From: Klebsiella michiganensis
Lineage (GTDB): Bacteria; Pseudomonadota; Gammaproteobacteria; Enterobacterales; Enterobacteriaceae
DNA: 64,000 nt
Reading direction: 5' to 3'
NCBI RefSeq assembly: GCF_002925905.1
Contig: NZ_PRDB01000007.1
Location: forward strand, 124,001 to 188,000
A program made the position numbers and the translations under genes. Every line of letters begins with the position of its first letter. Positions within the stretch are counted from its first letter, which is position 1. Below, piece by piece: positions 14,460-62,594 of the stretch. The notes under the pieces are model-generated. The model was not told the DNA's origin. It worked only from the letters and a program-made list of their open reading frames with translations, and did not search any database.

Positions 14460-17400
14460 ATGGACGTCAGCCGCAGAAAGTTTTTTAAAATCTGCGCAGG
14501 CGGTATGGCCGGAACAACAGCCGCTGCATTGGGTTTTGCGCCCAAAATGGCCCTGGCTCAGGCGCGTAATTACAAATTGCTGCGCGCCAAAGAGATCCGC
14601 AACACCTGCACATACTGCTCCGTGGGCTGCGGGCTATTAATGTATAGCCTGGGCGACGGCGCGAAAAACGCGAAAGAAGCGATTTACCACATTGAAGGTG
14701 ACCCGGATCATCCGGTGAGCCGCGGCGCGCTGTGCCCGAAAGGCGCGGGGCTGCTTGACTATGTTCATAGCGACAACCGCCTGCGCTATCCGCAGTACCG
14801 CGCGCCGGGTTCGGATACATGGCAGCGCATCTCCTGGGATGACGCGTTTACCCGCATCGCCAAACTGATGAAAGCCGACCGCGACGCCAATTTTATTGAA
14901 AAGAACGAACAGGGCGTGACGGTTAACCGCTGGCTGTCCACCGGGATGTTATGTGCCTCTGCGGCCAGTAATGAAACCGGCATGCTGACGCAAAAATTTG
15001 TGCGCTCCCTCGGCATGCTGGCGGTAGACAACCAGGCGCGCGTCTGACACGGACCAACGGTAGCAAGTCTTGCTCCAACATTTGGTCGCGGTGCGATGAC
15101 CAACCACTGGGTTGATATCAAAAACGCTAACGTCGTGGTGGTGATGGGCGGTAACGCCGCCGAAGCCCATCCGGTGGGATTCCGCTGGGCGATGGAGGCG
15201 AAAAACAACAACGATGCGACGCTGATTGTCGTCGACCCGCGCTTTACGCGCACGGCGTCGGTGGCCGATATCTATGCGCCTATTCGCTCCGGCACGGACA
15301 TTACCTTCCTGTCCGGCGTGCTGCTGTACCTGATCGAAAATAACAAAATCAATGCCGAGTACGTTAAACACTACACCAACGCCAACCTGCTGGTGCGCGA
15401 CGATTTTGCCTTCGAAGATGGCCTGTTCAGCGGCTACGATGCCGAAAAGCGTCAGTACGATAAGTCTTCGTGGAACTATCAGTTCGACGAAAACGGCTAC
15501 GCCATGCGCGACGAGACGCTGCAGCATCCGCGCTGCGTCTGGAACCTGCTGAAGCAGCACGTTTCGCGCTATACGCCGGAGGTGGTGGAGAATATCTGCG
15601 GTACGCCAAAGGCGGACTTCCTCAAAGTGTGCGAAGTGCTGGCGTCAACCAGCGCGGCGGACCGAACCACCACCTTCCTTTACGCGCTGGGCTGGACGCA
15701 GCATACCGTCGGGGCGCAGAACATCCGTACCATGGCGATGATTCAGCTGCTGCTCGGCAATATGGGGATGGCGGGCGGCGGCGTCAACGCGCTGCGCGGG
15801 CACTCCAATATTCAGGGGCTAACCGATTTAGGCCTGCTCTCAACCAGCCTGCCGGGCTACCTGACGCTGCCGTCGGAACAGCAGACGGATCTGCAAAGCT
15901 ATCTCGCCGCCAATACGCCGAAGGCGACGCTGGCCGAACAGGTGAACTACTGGAGCAACTATCCGAAGTTCTTCGTCAGCCTGATGAAATCGTTCTACGG
16001 CGACGCGGCGCAAAAAGAGAACGACTGGGGCTTCCACTGGCTGCCGAAATGGGACCAGTCTTACGACGTTATCAAATATTTCAATATGATGGATAACGGC
16101 AACGTCACGGGCTATATCTGCCAGGGCTTCAATCCGGTGGCTTCGTTCCCGGACAAAAACAAGGTGGTCCGCAGCCTGAGCAAGCTGAAGTACATGGTGG
16201 TTATCGACCCGCTGGTAACCGAAACGTCGACCTTCTGGCAAAACCACGGCGAGTCGAACGATGTTGACCCGGCGGCGATTCAGACCGAAGTGTTCCGCCT
16301 GCCGTCCACCTGCTTCGCCGAAGAGGATGGTTCAATCGCCAACTCCGGGCGCTGGCTGCAGTGGCACTGGAAAGGCCAGGACGCGCCGGGCGAAGCGCGC
16401 AACGACGGCGAAATTCTGGCCGGCATTTACCACCGTCTGCGCGAGCTGTATCGCACCGAGGGCGGCAAAGGCGTCGAGCCGCTGCTGAAGATGGGGTGGC
16501 ACTACAAGCAGCCGGATCGTCCGGAATCAGAAGAGGTCGCGAAAGAGAACAACGGCTACGCGCTGGCGGATCTCTTCGACGCTAACGGCGCGCCGCTGGC
16601 GAAGAAGGGCCAGCTGTTGAACAGCTTCGCGCTGCTGCGCGATGACGGTACCACCGCGTCGTCCTGCTGGATCTATACCGGCAGCTGGACCGAGCAGGGC
16701 AACCAGATGGCCAACCGCGATAACGCCGATCCGTCAGGCCTCGGCAACACGCTCGGCTGGGCATGGGCGTGGCCGCTCAACCGGCGCGTGCTGTACAACC
16801 GCGCGTCGGCGGATATTAACGGCAAGCCGTGGGATGCGAAGCGGATGCTGATCCAGTGGAACGGCAGCAAGTGGGTTGGCAACGATATTCCGGACTTCAA
16901 TACCGCGCCGCCGGGCAGCAAAACCGGGCCGTTTATTATGCAGCCGGAAGGACTGGGGCGCCTGTTTGCCCTGAATAAGCTGGCGGAAGGTCCGTTCCCG
17001 GAACACTACGAGCCGATGGAAACGCCGCTTGGCACCAACCCGCTGCACCCGAACGTGGTCTCCAGCCCGGTGGTGCGCCTGTATGAAGAGGATGCCCTTC
17101 GTTTAGGTAAGAAGGATAAATTCCCGTACGTCGGCACCACCTATCGCCTGACCGAGCATTTTCATACCTGGACCAAGCATGCGCTGCTCAATGCGATTGC
17201 GCAGCCGGAACAGTTTGTCGAAATCAGCGAAGGTCTGGCGAAAGCGAAGGGGATTGCCAACGGCGATCGGGTGACGGTCAGCAGCAAGCGCGGCTTTATT
17301 CGCGCGGTAGCGGTGGTGACGCGTCGTCTGCAAACGCTCAACGTTAACGGCCAGCAGGTAGAAACCGTCGGGATCCCGCTGCACTGGGGTTTTGAAGGGG

Positions 17401-30565: not shown

Positions 30566-31534
30566 ATGACGACGTTCCCGCTTGTTGATGAAATTCGTAC
30601 CGCGTCGCGCCTGATGGTGCGAGAGCTGGGCTTTATGAGCGCGACGCTTGCCGCCACGGACTATTCACCTTCCGCCGTGCACACCTTACTGGAAATATCG
30701 CTCCGCGGGGCGATGACCGCCGCGCAGCTGGTACAGATCCTCGGGCTCGATAAATCGAGCGTTAGCCGAATGCTTTCCCGACTACTGGCCGCCGGCGAGC
30801 TCCAGGAAAAACCCTCCGCCGGCGACGGGCGCTTCAAGCAGCTTGCGTTAACCGCCAAAGGCGCGGCGACAGTCGATAAAATTAACGCCTACGGCGCAAT
30901 GCGGGTTGTCAACGCGCTGGCGCACCTGAGCGATGAGCAGAAACAATGTGTTGCGCAGGGGCTCACCGCCTGGGCCGGGGCGCTGGAAAAATGTCGCGAC
31001 GCTGAGGCGACCGCCGCGAAAAAGGCGATTGATATCGTTACCGGCTATCGTCCGGGAATGATTGGCCGCATTACGCAGATGCACGGCGAGTACTATGCGA
31101 AGCATTATGAATTTGGTCACTTTTTCGAGAGCAAAGTGGCCAGCGGGCTAGCGGAGTTTTCCGGTCGTCTTGAGAAACCGTGCAACCGGGTTTGGCTTGC
31201 CGTTCAGGGTGAGCAGATTGTCGGATCGGTGGCGATTGACGGCGAGGATCTTGGTAATAATGAAGCGCATCTGCGCTGGTTTATCCTCGACGATAGCTGC
31301 CGGGGAAGCGGTGTTGGCCGACGTCTGCTGAATGAAGCGATGGCCTTTTGCGATAGCCAGAACTTCACCGCGGTGCGGCTGTGGACCTTCAGCGGGCTGA
31401 ACGCCGCCCGCAGGCTGTATGAATCCTTCGGCTTTACGCTGGATAAAGCGTGGCAGGGGGATCAGTGGGGGCGGATGATGACCGAGCAGCAGTTTAGTCG
31501 GGTCAAACCCGTTGCGCCTGCCGGCGCGGAATAA
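30566..31534 (+). CDS. MarR-type regulator fused to a GNAT acetyltransferase
   Basis: A 322-residue fusion. Residues about 1-140 form a MarR winged helix (LLEISLRGAMTAAQLVQILGLDKSSVSRMLSRLLAAGEL, wing near KPSAGDGRFKQLALT). Residues about 160-310 form a GNAT domain with the acetyl-CoA loop around SCRGSGVGRRLLNEA. The two-domain form is widespread in proteobacteria; the acetylated substrate and the ligand are unknown. It starts 24 bp after a palindrome that may be its own operator. It is convergent with the ABC-F gene, across a strong hairpin. Confidence 0.85.
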   Translation: MTTFPLVDEIRTASRLMVRELGFMSATLAATDYSPSAVHTLLEISLRGAMTAAQLVQILGLDKSSVSRMLSRLLAAGELQEKPSAGDGRFKQLALTAKGAATVDKINAYGAMRVVNALAHLSDEQKQCVAQGLTAWAGALEKCRDAEATAAKKAIDIVTGYRPGMIGRITQMHGEYYAKHYEFGHFFESKVASGLAEFSGRLEKPCNRVWLAVQGEQIVGSVAIDGEDLGNNEAHLRWFILDDSCRGSGVGRRLLNEAMAFCDSQNFTAVRLWTFSGLNAARRLYESFGFTLDKAWQGDQWGRMMTEQQFSRVKPVAPAGAE

Positions 31535-31571: not shown

Positions 31572-33284
31572 TTAGCCTAATAACGTCGCAATCGTTGTTA
31601 TCTCCTTACGCCACTGCGCCTGCAGCTGCGGTTTTTGATGTTTTGGTTTGCGCGCCAGATCGTCGGCCAGCAGCTGCTCAAGCGTGACTAACCGCTCCAG
31701 CAGCGCATCCTGGTCCTCCTCCGGTTCGCTACTGTTCACCGTCGCGGCCTGCGTCGCCGGACGACGAACGGCGGTGCGCAAAATCTCATACACCTCTTCG
31801 CTGCTGTGCCATTCGCTCAGCCCGCGCTCGTCGATAAGCCAGAAGCGATTGCAGCTGCGGTTAATGAGCTCGCGATCGTGGCTCACCAGCAGCAGGCCGC
31901 CGGGATAGTCGCGCAGCGTAGCCGCCAGCGCCGTTTTGCCATCCATATCTAAATGGTTGGTGGGCTCATCCAGCAGCAGCAGGCTATAGCGGGCCAGAGA
32001 GAGGCCGACGAACAGCAGGCGCGAACGCTCGCCGCCGCTTAAGGTGGCGACCTTTTGCCCGTGACGCGGCCAGCTGAATCCGGCGGAAATTAGCGCCCGC
32101 CTGCGCGCATCCGGGCCTGGTTCAAAGGGCTCCAGCGCGTCGAGAAGGGTATCGTCATCCGCCAGCTGATGCAGGGTCTGGTCGTAATAACCCGGCTTCA
32201 GCCGCGGGTGCAGACGCAAACCGCTTTCCGTCGTTTCCTGCTGCATTTGCCGCCACAGCAGACGCAGCAGCGAAGACTTGCCGCCGCCGTTACGGCCCAT
32301 CACCGCCACCCGATCGCCGCTTTTCAGGCGAGCCAGGCCTGCGGTAAACAGGGCCGGCAGACCGGGCGCGGGGGGAACCGGGAGCTGTTCCATCTCCAGC
32401 AGTCGGTCCGCCCGCAGCATGTCGCCGTGGAGCGCCAGCCGCCAGGGGGTGCCCATGGTCAGCTCGGTTTGGCTCTCCTTCAGGCGTTGAACCTGCTTCT
32501 CCATCTGCTTGGCTTTGCGGGAGAGATCTTCGTTGTCATAGGTCCGACCCCAGATAGCCAGCCGTTTGGCGCTGGCGGCGACCCGGTCGATCTCCTTTTG
32601 CTCGGCTTTATGGCGCTGCGCATCGCTGGCGTCCTGCTCTTCCAGCGCCCGGCGGGCGGCGCTGCAGGGCAGGGAGAAGGCGTGCAGCGTTCTGTCGCGC
32701 AGGATCCAACTGGAATTAGTTACAGCATCCAATAAGATATTATCATGCGACACCAGAACGAAGCTCCCCTGCCAGGTTTGCAGGAAGCTTTCCAGCCACA
32801 GGAGGGTCGGCAGGTCGAGGTGGTTTCCCGGCTCATCCAGCAGCAGGAGATCCGGCTGCTGAATCAGCGCCCTGGCAAGCAGTAGCCGGGTATGCTGACC
32901 GCCGCTCAGGGTTGACGCCCGCTGCGCGGCCTCATCTGGCGTAAAGCCCATCTCTGCCAATAGCCTCTCCGCTTGCCAGCGCTGACTCTCACGCTCAGGG
33001 GCGGGAAGTTTCGCCAGTACCACCTGCAGCAGGGGCTGCGCTAACAGCGCATCGGGTAGATGCTGTTCCACACGCGCCATCAGACAGTGACTGGCCAGCG
33101 CCACGCTGCCCGAACTGGGCACGATCGTGCCGTCCAGCACCTGTAGCAGGGTACTTTTTCCGCAGCCGTTATAGCCAATCAGGCCAATACGGTCGCCTTT
33201 TTTCAGGGTAAAGGAGAGGTTTGTGAACAGCGGGCCAAACGCCGTATCAACATGAAGAGATTGTGCAGTTAGTAATGTGCTCAT
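31572..33284 (-). CDS. ABC-F family ATPase (ribosome-associated type)
   Basis: A 570-residue soluble protein with two ABC domains and no membrane segment. Domain 1 has Walker A GYNGCGKST and signature LSGGQHTR; domain 2 has GRNGGGKSS and LSGGERSR with DEPTNHLD. The charged linker near residues 215-280 (EQKEIDRVAASAKRL, KAKQMEKQVQRLKES) is the helical arm that enters the ribosomal E site in this family. The first Walker B continuation reads DEPGNHLD, where Gly replaces the usual Thr. ABC-F proteins either assist translation or protect ribosomes from antibiotics. A leader peptide and competing hairpins upstream suggest inducible expression. Start chosen at ATG 33284; a TTG 15 bases earlier is less likely. 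Confidence 0.88.
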   Translation of the reverse strand: MSTLLTAQSLHVDTAFGPLFTNLSFTLKKGDRIGLIGYNGCGKSTLLQVLDGTIVPSSGSVALASHCLMARVEQHLPDALLAQPLLQVVLAKLPAPERESQRWQAERLLAEMGFTPDEAAQRASTLSGGQHTRLLLARALIQQPDLLLLDEPGNHLDLPTLLWLESFLQTWQGSFVLVSHDNILLDAVTNSSWILRDRTLHAFSLPCSAARRALEEQDASDAQRHKAEQKEIDRVAASAKRLAIWGRTYDNEDLSRKAKQMEKQVQRLKESQTELTMGTPWRLALHGDMLRADRLLEMEQLPVPPAPGLPALFTAGLARLKSGDRVAVMGRNGGGKSSLLRLLWRQMQQETTESGLRLHPRLKPGYYDQTLHQLADDDTLLDALEPFEPGPDARRRALISAGFSWPRHGQKVATLSGGERSRLLFVGLSLARYSLLLLDEPTNHLDMDGKTALAATLRDYPGGLLLVSHDRELINRSCNRFWLIDERGLSEWHSSEEVYEILRTAVRRPATQAATVNSSEPEEDQDALLERLVTLEQLLADDLARKPKHQKPQLQAQWRKEITTIATLLG

Positions 33285-33306
33285 TGTGAACTTACTCAAG
33301 AGTTAC

Positions 33307-33423
33307 AGGCATGTGAATGCCTCGTCAAACATCGCTGACGATAACCCGGTAAGCCCGAGGGAAGGGAGTTAGTCTATGGTTTCTTCGCTCAAGCTGAAGT
33401 TATCGCAGCACGATACCGATAAC
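33307..33423 (-). promoter_or_regulatory. Candidate attenuator between the leader ORF and the ABC-F gene
   Basis: On the minus strand, segment A GTTATCG (33417-33423) and segment C GTTATCG (33339-33345) are identical, and segment B CGATAAC (33399-33405) is complementary to both. A and B are inside the leader ORF; B overlaps its stop codon. A stalled ribosome covering A or B would shift the pairing. A further hairpin AGGCAT-N4-ATGCCT (33307-33322) lies just before the ABC-F ribosome site. Outside these elements, 33285-33399 holds no gene. Confidence 0.5.
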
Positions 33424-33480
33424 GCTTGAGCAGGTGCGATCGCCAAATGCACGTGAAAAAAACATTTCACAGTACGACAT
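33400..33480 (-). CDS. Leader peptide (26 codons) upstream of the ABC-F gene
   Basis: A short ORF with a very strong ribosome site (AAGGAGG, 5 bases before ATG). The peptide begins MSYCEMFFSRAFGD and ends SSVIGIVLR before TAA. It lies 115 bp upstream of the ABC-F start on the same strand, after a plausible promoter (TGGTCA, 17 bp, TACACT, about 33515-33545 on the minus strand). Leader peptides of this kind sense ribosome-targeting antibiotics or slow translation ahead of ABC-F and methyltransferase genes in other bacteria. Its stop codon lies inside one arm of the competing hairpins. I do not recognise the peptide; the role is inference from arrangement. Confidence 0.6.
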   Translation of the reverse strand: MSYCEMFFSRAFGDRTCSSVIGIVLR

Positions 33481-33558
33481 GGGATCCTCCTTTTTTATTC
33501 AGTGAGTTGATGGGTGCTGGCAGTGTAGAGGGAGAAAGCGGTTTTGACCAGATGAGAA

Positions 33559-33583
33559 TAAAAAAAGGCCTGCAAAGCAGGCC
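33559..33583 (-). terminator. Terminator of maeA
   Basis: GGCCTGC and GCAGGCC arms with a 3-base loop; on the minus strand a run of seven T follows. It lies 22 bp past the maeA stop and separates maeA from the leader-ABC-F unit. Confidence 0.88.
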
Positions 33584-33605
33584 CCCTGTATGACTCATCT
33601 ACCGG

Positions 33606-51461: not shown

Positions 51462-51580
51462 CCTGACGGGCAGGCTTAGCGCATTAAGGTCATTCTAAAC
51501 AAATCGTCACTAAAGCGAGATTTTAACTTTACTCAAATAATTGAATGACTATAATGAGCACAAATTCACACAGGAGAAAT

Positions 51581-51622
51581 ATGTTGGACAGTCACCCTTA
51601 CTTAAACATCAAGGCAAGCTGA
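51581..51622 (+). CDS. mgtC leader ORF 1 (13 codons, MgtM-like position)
   Basis: MLDSHPYLNIKAS, with AGGAGAAAT directly upstream. Its last codons (GGCAAGC) form one arm of a stem that competes with the next hairpin, so translation to the end would free the downstream segment. The arrangement copies Salmonella mgtM; the role is inferred. Confidence 0.6.
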   Translation: MLDSHPYLNIKAS

Positions 51623-51661
51623 CGCTATTTTTTCTGCGCTGCTTGCCAACCGGCGGGCAGC
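51613..51661 (+). promoter_or_regulatory. Competing stems in the mgtC leader
   Basis: GGCAAGC (51613-51619) can pair perfectly with GCTTGCC (51641-51647). The same downstream segment, as GCTGCTTGCC (51638-51647), can instead pair over 10 bp with GGCGGGCAGC (51652-51661) across an AACC loop. These are mutually exclusive structures, one arm lying inside leader ORF 1. No long T run follows, so Rho or downstream structure may complete the control. Confidence 0.55.
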
Positions 51662-51727
51662 AATCTCCTCATCCAGACGATTGCATCCCATAAAAAATAA
51701 CGCAGCATGGCTGCGAGGATAATCGTC

Positions 51728-60080: not shown

Positions 60081-60229
60081 CCCACCTGTTCAGGTGAGTT
60101 GTCGCGCATCGCCAACCGCGGTCATACTGTTCGTCACCCTGTGACTGGCGCTTTAGACAGGAACTGTCGGGGAGCATGGGGATCGCCGCCGCGCGCCTGG
60201 GCATCACATCACTTTACCGGAGATACGCT

Positions 60230-62289: not shown

Positions 62290-62465
62290 GCCTTCACGCC
62301 ATACGCACCAAATCCATGCAATGCCCCATCATCACTCCCCATTTTTGGGAGCCGCGGCGGCGCCTGCCGCCGTAGGGCTGATTTTACGCGCGCTGCGCGC
62401 CTGGCATAGACCTTGCAAACTCCTGTTCAGAAGGCAGCGCAACAGACAATTGAGATAACACAATA

Positions 62466-62557
62466 GCTGGCTAGGGTTCCGGTTCACTCAGGTGAACGTC
62501 TGGTCCGAGAGCTGGCGACCTCTGCGAGGTTACACGGCGGGACAAAAGCCCGGGAGA
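62466..62557 (+). promoter_or_regulatory. Guanidine-I (ykkC-yxkD) riboswitch aptamer
   Basis: The conserved blocks of the ykkC class I RNA occur in order: CTAGGGTTCCGG (62471-62482), GGTCCGAGAGCTGGC (62502-62516), and ACACGGCGGGACAAAAGCCC (62532-62551) followed by GGGAGA. The helix GTTCACTCAGGTGAAC between the first two blocks pairs well. It lies in the 5' leader of an ABC importer. This RNA binds guanidine and turns on guanidine-handling genes. The 368-bp gap between genes (62248-62615) is mostly this element. Confidence 0.9.
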
Positions 62558-62594
62558 CAGCAGCACCGTTGGGTGTCGCGCTGCTCCCGTTTCT
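62552..62594 (+). terminator. Expression-platform hairpin of the guanidine riboswitch
   Basis: GGGA plus GCAGC (62552-62564, with a 4-base bulge) can pair with GCTGCTCCC (62580-62588), then GTTTCT. The GGGA is also part of the aptamer's conserved 3' end, so ligand binding and this stem exclude each other. The T run is weak, so translation control is also possible. Confidence 0.5.

Follow-up and report, generated by a model that had tools for sequence, protein, structure and literature searches.

A conserved leader ORF with alternative RNA pairings as a probable translational attenuator of a chromosomal ABC-F gene, from Klebsiella to Aeromonas

In Klebsiella michiganensis, the gene of an ABC-F ATPase is preceded by a short ORF whose RNA can form mutually exclusive pairings, with the ABC-F Shine-Dalgarno sequence paired at rest according to sequence and prediction. 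The leader is a real cis-regulator, and regulation should operate through the position of the ribosome on the leader ORF. Probably, it is a translational attenuator of the ermC or toiL kind, in which stalling in the middle of the leader would derepress the chromosomal ABC-F gene. Conservation, the alternative pairings and the modelled occupancy by ribosomes give good support to such leader-ORF attenuation, which an earlier note on this DNA had proposed; the drug sensing and ribosome protection proposed with it are putative. On balance, we also lean slightly to a broader reading: a single leader ORF of ancestral origin, carrying an anti-Shine-Dalgarno sequence within it, would guard the same ABC-F translation factor in bacteria ranging from Aeromonas and Vibrio to Klebsiella, with its RNA logic kept and its pairing sequence rewritten, and would form an undescribed inducible ribosome-rescue or ribosome-protection response. 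A literature search gave, among the matches listed, no paper on the leader. To our knowledge, most of the ABC-F genes known to be inducible under the control of a leader come from Gram-positive bacteria.

The leader ORF and its signals

The window analysed is a stretch of 64,000 nucleotides of the K. michiganensis genome. The leader ORF (33400..33480, minus strand) comprises 26 codons followed by TAA, with the predicted peptide MSYCEMFFSRAFGDRTCSSVIGIVLR. Its Shine-Dalgarno sequence AAGGAGG lies at 33486..33492 on the same strand; ORF and ribosome site are both present as reported. AAGGAGG is present in 65/65 leaders compared, and L171, outside that set, carries AAGGAGA.

A candidate -10 box TACACT (33522..33527, minus strand) and, 17 nt 5′ of it, a candidate -35 box TGGTCA (33545..33550, minus strand), which is under the scan threshold, were recognised by eye. 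TGGTCA-17-TACACT has 8 of 12 consensus matches (by eye). Of 23 upstream regions counted by eye, 16 have TACACT at the -10 place and the remaining 7 a variant resembling TATAAT. The promoter suggested for the leader is weak by consensus, and a scan at 9 of 12 found none. Further upstream, a terminator scan detected an intrinsic terminator (33563..33587, minus strand; 11-pair stem and T run; scan mean in shuffles 0.5). It follows the upstream gene, which we take to be the malic enzyme gene maeA, and sets the leader transcript apart.

The ABC-F gene and its genomic setting

The gene taken as regulated (31572..33284, minus strand, 570 aa) was read from ATG 33284 and not from the TTG of the mechanical ORF list. 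Its product, searched without the first residue, barely passes the NCBIfam model NF000355 for ribosomal protection-like ABC-F proteins (380.5 bits, cut-off 380). Pfam ABC_tran was found in two stretches of the product, which therefore has two ABC domains. Among the named resistance families checked (Msr, Vga, Sal, Lsa, OptrA, CplR, Car(A) and others), no cut-off was reached. Further loci of the same genome match the curated models PRK10636 (presumably YheS), Uup, PRK15064 (presumably YbiT) and EttA, so that the leader-linked ABC-F is at least a fifth.

The gene at 30566-31534 (plus strand), which converges with that of ABC-F, encodes a protein with MarR and GNAT domains; in K. pneumoniae L191, too, ABC-F has a GNAT gene next to it. 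Elsewhere in the window, Rfam matches on the plus strand correspond to an mgtC leader (51561-51671), a guanidine-I riboswitch (62460-62558), SECIS_3 (15042-15100) and a ZMP/ZTP riboswitch (60131-60209).

Conservation and distribution of the leader

A species-genome scan gave 163 stretches encoding ABC-F relatives, of which the best 80 were kept. A homologous ATG ORF with a ribosome site is found 180-200 nt upstream of the orthologous ABC-F gene in all of them (80/80, best 80 of 163), and the segments described below keep their pairing; the leader ORF is therefore no product of chance. The sole ORF frameshifted near its end among the 80 kept loci is that of L080. The closest named loci among the matches listed belong to Klebsiella grimontii and K. 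oxytoca. A pattern describing the whole arrangement matched exactly once in each of 99 loci (80 relatives and 19 of the same genus). From the window and these loci, 62 of 100 leaders were assembled in alignment A1, and a covariance model, R1, was built from it.

R1 matched 79 of 295 genomes in a family sample, in which all 77 genomes with ABC-F at E <= 1e-150 carry the leader. The distance from leader end to ABC-F start is -4 to 0 nt in 76 of the 77 and 13 nt in one. Matches without a counted ABC-F came from G046, where the gene is apparently split into several frames, and from G212, where the contig ends 816 bases past the leader. The G046 leader itself (L146) is intact, in a genome rated 49% complete. 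G112 has, in addition to an intact leader, a second and partial copy (L148:3432-3519) at 1465 nt 5′ of the ABC-F start.

In an order sample (295 genomes), R1 matched 22 and ABC-F 32, both being found in 21. A leader is present in 31 of the 32 ABC-F genomes, 21 detected by the model and 10 by eye; these ten, all of one genus, have diverged leaders resembling that of the Aeromonas locus L156. In G177 (ABC-F of 42% identity), no leader was found in the 330 nt upstream. The R1 match in G439 (20.7 bits, E 0.0037) was rejected as a false positive because this genome has no ABC-F match at 1e-110. With strict filters, a class sample gave a match in 1 of 274 genomes, the window's own. A blastn search detected no E. 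coli copy.

Eight of 43 matching plasmid-collection records were also examined, together with L191. R1 finds the leader in six records (two Pantoea, two Vibrio, one Photobacterium and one Morganella); that of Aeromonas L156 was recognised by eye, and in Sinorhizobium L157 a different ORF precedes ABC-F. The latter locus (Sinorhizobium meliloti psymA) encodes a distant ABC-F of about 37% identity, preceded by a short ORF, VQNYYYRFNRQRGPVNALRMRLQG, that has a ribosome site and is possibly an independent leader. In L159, a 50.6 kb plasmid record of Morganella morganii, ABC-F and leader lie near three acetyltransferase genes. The gene listings of L152, L158 and L159 show no coding gene over the leader, and that of L191, whose gene table is incomplete, shows none in the 360 nt before ABC-F. 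The unit is thus not confined to Klebsiella and Raoultella but spans the GTDB order, with leaders in Klebsiella, Enterobacter, Citrobacter, Serratia, Proteus, Vibrio and Aeromonas.

Alternative pairings of the leader RNA

Four segments of the minus strand can pair in alternative ways. Segment 1 (GCTCAAGCGTTATCG, 33417..33431), inside the ORF, has as partner segment 2 or the ABC-F Shine-Dalgarno sequence (segment 4). Segment 2 (CGATAACTTCAGCTTGAGC, 33387..33405), which includes the leader stop codon, can pair with segment 1 or 3, and segment 3 (CTCGGGCTTACCGGGTTATCGTC, 33337..33359) with segment 2 or the ABC-F start region. Segment 4 (TCTTGAGTAAGT, 33290..33301) is the weak Shine-Dalgarno region of the ABC-F gene. 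The repeats previously pointed out are part of this arrangement: CGATAAC at 33405-33399 holds the leader stop codon, and GTTATCG occurs twice, at 33423-33417 within the ORF and at 33345-33339. The additional hairpin announced 5′ of the ABC-F ribosome site was likewise found (33308..33321, minus strand; GGCAT at 33321-33317 and ATGCC at 33312-33308). A main pairing had been overlooked, between GCTCAAG in the ORF and its complement CTTGAGT, which lies at the ABC-F ribosome site.

Two folds are predicted, 1:4 with 2:3 and 1:2 with 3:4, and the ABC-F ribosome site is paired in both. The free minimum of the window RNA is 1:4 + 2:3, at -81.8 kcal/mol versus -74.6 for 1:2 + 3:4, energies that ignore cotranscriptional folding.

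For the 1:2 + 3:4 fold, 95.3% of the cells in A1 are paired, compared to 24-42% in slid controls, and both-sided cells number 42 versus 8.1 in shuffles, which ignore relatedness. Pair types are no more numerous than in shuffles (483 of 500). Paired cells amount to 98.9% in the outer and 88.9% in the inner part of helix 1:2, to 98.9% in the outer part of 3:4 and to 93.8 and 94.1% in its inner parts. The small hairpin is paired in 98.6% of cells, with both-sided changes at 3 of its 5 pairs. In L111 (Rouxiella silvae), helix 3:4 is apparently rebuilt in a shifted register (GCATTCC/GGAATAC, 6/7 pairs, by eye).

Helix 2:3 is paired in 97.3% of A1 cells, with no both-sided change and no excess over shuffles (103 and 63 of 500). 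Among 65 leaders, 10/10 pairs are kept in 43, 9/10 in 20 and 8/10 in 2, whereas only 12 of 3250 shuffles reach 10 pairs and 148 reach 9. Position 8 of this helix is C-G in 54 leaders, U-G in 6 and U-A in 5. Covariation of the stems, put forward earlier as a check, is therefore clear when the 1:2 + 3:4 fold is taken together, but not clear for 2:3.

For helix 1:4, 97.8% of cells are paired, and the three both-sided cells all fall at one pair. The 1:4 duplex has a mean energy of -12.3 kcal/mol over 75 leaders versus -6.9 in shuffles, 6.3% of which reach the median of the leaders. In Aeromonas-type leaders, both sides are replaced (GCTCTTGC/GCAAGAGC) and pairing is still kept; L136 and L158 have a weak 1:4 helix (-3.2 kcal/mol).

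Modelled ribosome occupancy and proposed mechanism

A stalled ribosome was modelled as a 30-nt mask slid along the leader ORF of 64 leaders, with codons in the 27-codon numbering. L102 was left out of this set and its shuffles and was included in the 1:4 duplex set and in the masking run on Aeromonas-type leaders. Mean access to the ABC-F ribosome site rises from 0.37 at rest to 0.49-0.50 with the P site at codons 17-20. Masking at codons 15-20 gives a gain above 0.1 in 36-40 of the 64 leaders; at codon 18, the mean gain is 0.13 and 40/64 leaders exceed 0.1. Masks at codons 1-12 give a mean gain of at most 0.01. Masking was also applied to 192 dinucleotide shuffles at nine positions, where access shifts on average by no more than 0.004 in either direction; at codon 18 the mean change is -0.001, with 10/192 above 0.1. 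Resting access is only modestly lower in leaders (0.37) than in shuffles (0.45). With the mask at the last codon, the mean change is -0.01 and a single leader of 64 gains more than 0.1; stop-codon stalling as ON signal, in the manner of msrDL, was therefore rejected for these leaders, and less surely for the Aeromonas type.

At codon 18, the gain is no more than 0.1 in 24/64 leaders. These include K. pneumoniae L050, the similar L028, the Pantoea-type L136 and L152, and 4 of 5 Proteus/Morganella/Xenorhabdus leaders (L112, L115, L117, L118). Among Aeromonas-type leaders, 2/9 gain more than 0.1 at codons 18-19, and some gain at late codons instead. The peptides of L050 (K. pneumoniae ATCC 13883) and of L028, of the same genus, read GNC where most read GDR or GNR; L028 also misses 8 nt before segment 3.

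The following mechanism may be proposed. The transcript would begin just 5′ of the leader ORF. In the resting state, either 1:4 (together with 2:3) or 3:4 (together with 1:2) would keep the ABC-F ribosome site paired. A ribosome stalled with one of codons 15-20, approximately, in the P site would cover segment 1 and leave segment 2 free; pairing 2:3 would then keep segment 3 away, so that the ABC-F site is freed and translation can start. A ribosome at the leader stop codon would cover segment 2, and the ABC-F site would stay hidden. The likeliest trigger would be a ribosome-targeting compound or another elongation block near the stretch [SPA][HR]x[FY][GS] of the peptide. By relieving such stalled ribosomes, ABC-F may switch off its own leader.

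If this is true, the genera listed above carry a normally silent translation-protection gene, missed by tests without the right inducer. The leader would provide a ready sensor, and a compound that stalls ribosomes on it would reveal the purpose of ABC-F. Such an order-wide switch would concern clinically important genera of Gram-negative bacteria.

The leader peptide and the nature of the signal

The leader has 26, 27 or 28 codons in 75/75 cases compared. Coding was assessed with 48 distinct 27-codon leaders (718 pairs). For codons 2-17, pN/pS is 0.77 (bootstrap 0.67-0.88) and, in frame +1, 0.73; for codons 10-17 it is 0.59 in frame 0 versus 0.49 in frame +1. Since frame 0 does no better than frame +1, pN/pS gives no frame-specific signal, and peptide-level selection failed as a proof of coding; the synonymous-site check suggested earlier thus yielded no clean pass. 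For codons 18-27, pN/pS reaches 2.55, which we read as RNA constraint. Of 60 leaders, 40 are open in frame +1 and 3 in frame +2; this count was not used as evidence, since an ORF is by definition open in frame 0. That the leader is translated is suggested instead by sequence features that are kept, namely the ribosome site, the start and the length of 26-28 codons.

Some residues are nevertheless stable, Ser10 being present in 47/48 and Arg16 in 43/48 distinct 27-codon leaders, and residues 10 and 13-16 stay similar. Ser10 is encoded by TCA in 46/48, a uniformity that may reflect RNA constraint. By eye, two peptide elements are found again, with exceptions, in different lineages: the stretch [SPA][HR]x[FY][GS] (codons 10-14, 27-codon numbering) and the end I[VA]LR.

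These data bear on a generic sensor of translation speed, in which the ORF would merely deliver a ribosome to segment 1 and any slowing (starvation, tRNA shortage, many drugs) would derepress ABC-F, no specific nascent peptide being involved. As peptide selection is weak, generic translation stress stays among the conceivable triggers. Stalls across a range of codons would, in the model, open the ABC-F site, and E. coli toiL responds to at least five antibiotic classes (PMC12121999). The similarity of residues 10 and 13-16, tempered by the possible RNA constraint on the Ser10 codon, and the recurrence of [SPA][HR]x[FY][GS] in Vibrio and Aeromonas peptides (by eye, with exceptions) speak against it. 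We hold this explanation to be possible but clearly the less likely one.

Other explanations

A second layer of control by Rho-dependent polarity is rather doubtful. With the ABC-F site closed, either the untranslated gene or the pyrimidine-rich RNA that separates segments 2 and 3 would recruit Rho. A C-rich, G-poor stretch is present at about 33372-33357, and toiL-topAI is reported to be coupled to Rho (PMC12121999); such a layer would supplement the translational switch, not replace it.

We think it improbable that the leader is a structured 5′ RNA whose ligand is a protein, ABC-F itself or another, or else a small molecule, with an ORF that is incidental or serves translation coupling only. 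Segments 1-4 are highly conserved, beyond the apparent needs of pairing, and RNA constraint governs codons 18-27, as this explanation would have it. However, the ribosome site (65/65), the start codon and the 26-28 codon length (75/75) of the leader are also kept, and segment 1 lies inside the ORF, within reach of ribosome control.

Three known classes of regulators were rejected. Against a transcription attenuator of the vmlR or msrD type, the scan of the window showed no intrinsic terminator between leader and gene, the window's only terminator-like site being upstream of the leader (33587-33563). The 48 distinct leaders contain no codon run typical of an amino-acid operon attenuator, and the target is an ABC-F gene. 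No known Rfam cis-regulator or riboswitch matches over the leader at gathering score; a sub-threshold isrB match overlies the terminator, not the leader. Finally, a chance association of ORF and repeats is vanishingly improbable: such a start alone is not rare, with ten AGGAGG-N4-9-ATG sites in the window, but conservation and co-occurrence of the leader with ABC-F stand against it.

Comparison with known systems

In the ermC architecture, pairings 1:2 and 3:4 alternate with 2:3, the Shine-Dalgarno sequence is in segment 4 and the leader ORF extends over segment 1. The Klebsiella leader shares these features; it differs by its ABC-F target, by the extra 1:4 helix pairing the ribosome site in a second fold, and by a stalling that is predicted here and drug-dependent in ermC. 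PMC10314930 names ermC.

In E. coli toiL-topAI, the 8-codon toiL controls a toxin-antitoxin operon, and stalling in the ORF is proposed to open the ribosome site (PMC12121999). In both systems, a short upstream ORF provides RNA that can pair with the ribosome site of the gene behind it. The Klebsiella leader differs in its length of 26-28 codons, in its four-segment switch and in its ABC-F target.

Two systems share the ABC-F target. For vmlR of Bacillus subtilis, PMC9226507 describes a leader ORF controlling a chromosomal ABC-F gene and a hairpin partly sequestering its Shine-Dalgarno sequence, as here; unlike the window leader, where none was found, it has an intrinsic terminator in the leader, and its uORF has 3 codons. 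In streptococci, a leader peptide controls ABC-F in msrDL-msrD, and the MsrD protein suppresses induction via its own leader (PMC10314930). There, transcription is attenuated and the ribosome stalls at the stop codon that ends MYLIFM, whereas a ribosome at the stop codon of the Klebsiella leader is predicted to keep the gene off. The msr(E)-like ABC-F genes reported in PMC5776109 are different from the leader-linked ABC-F of Klebsiella.
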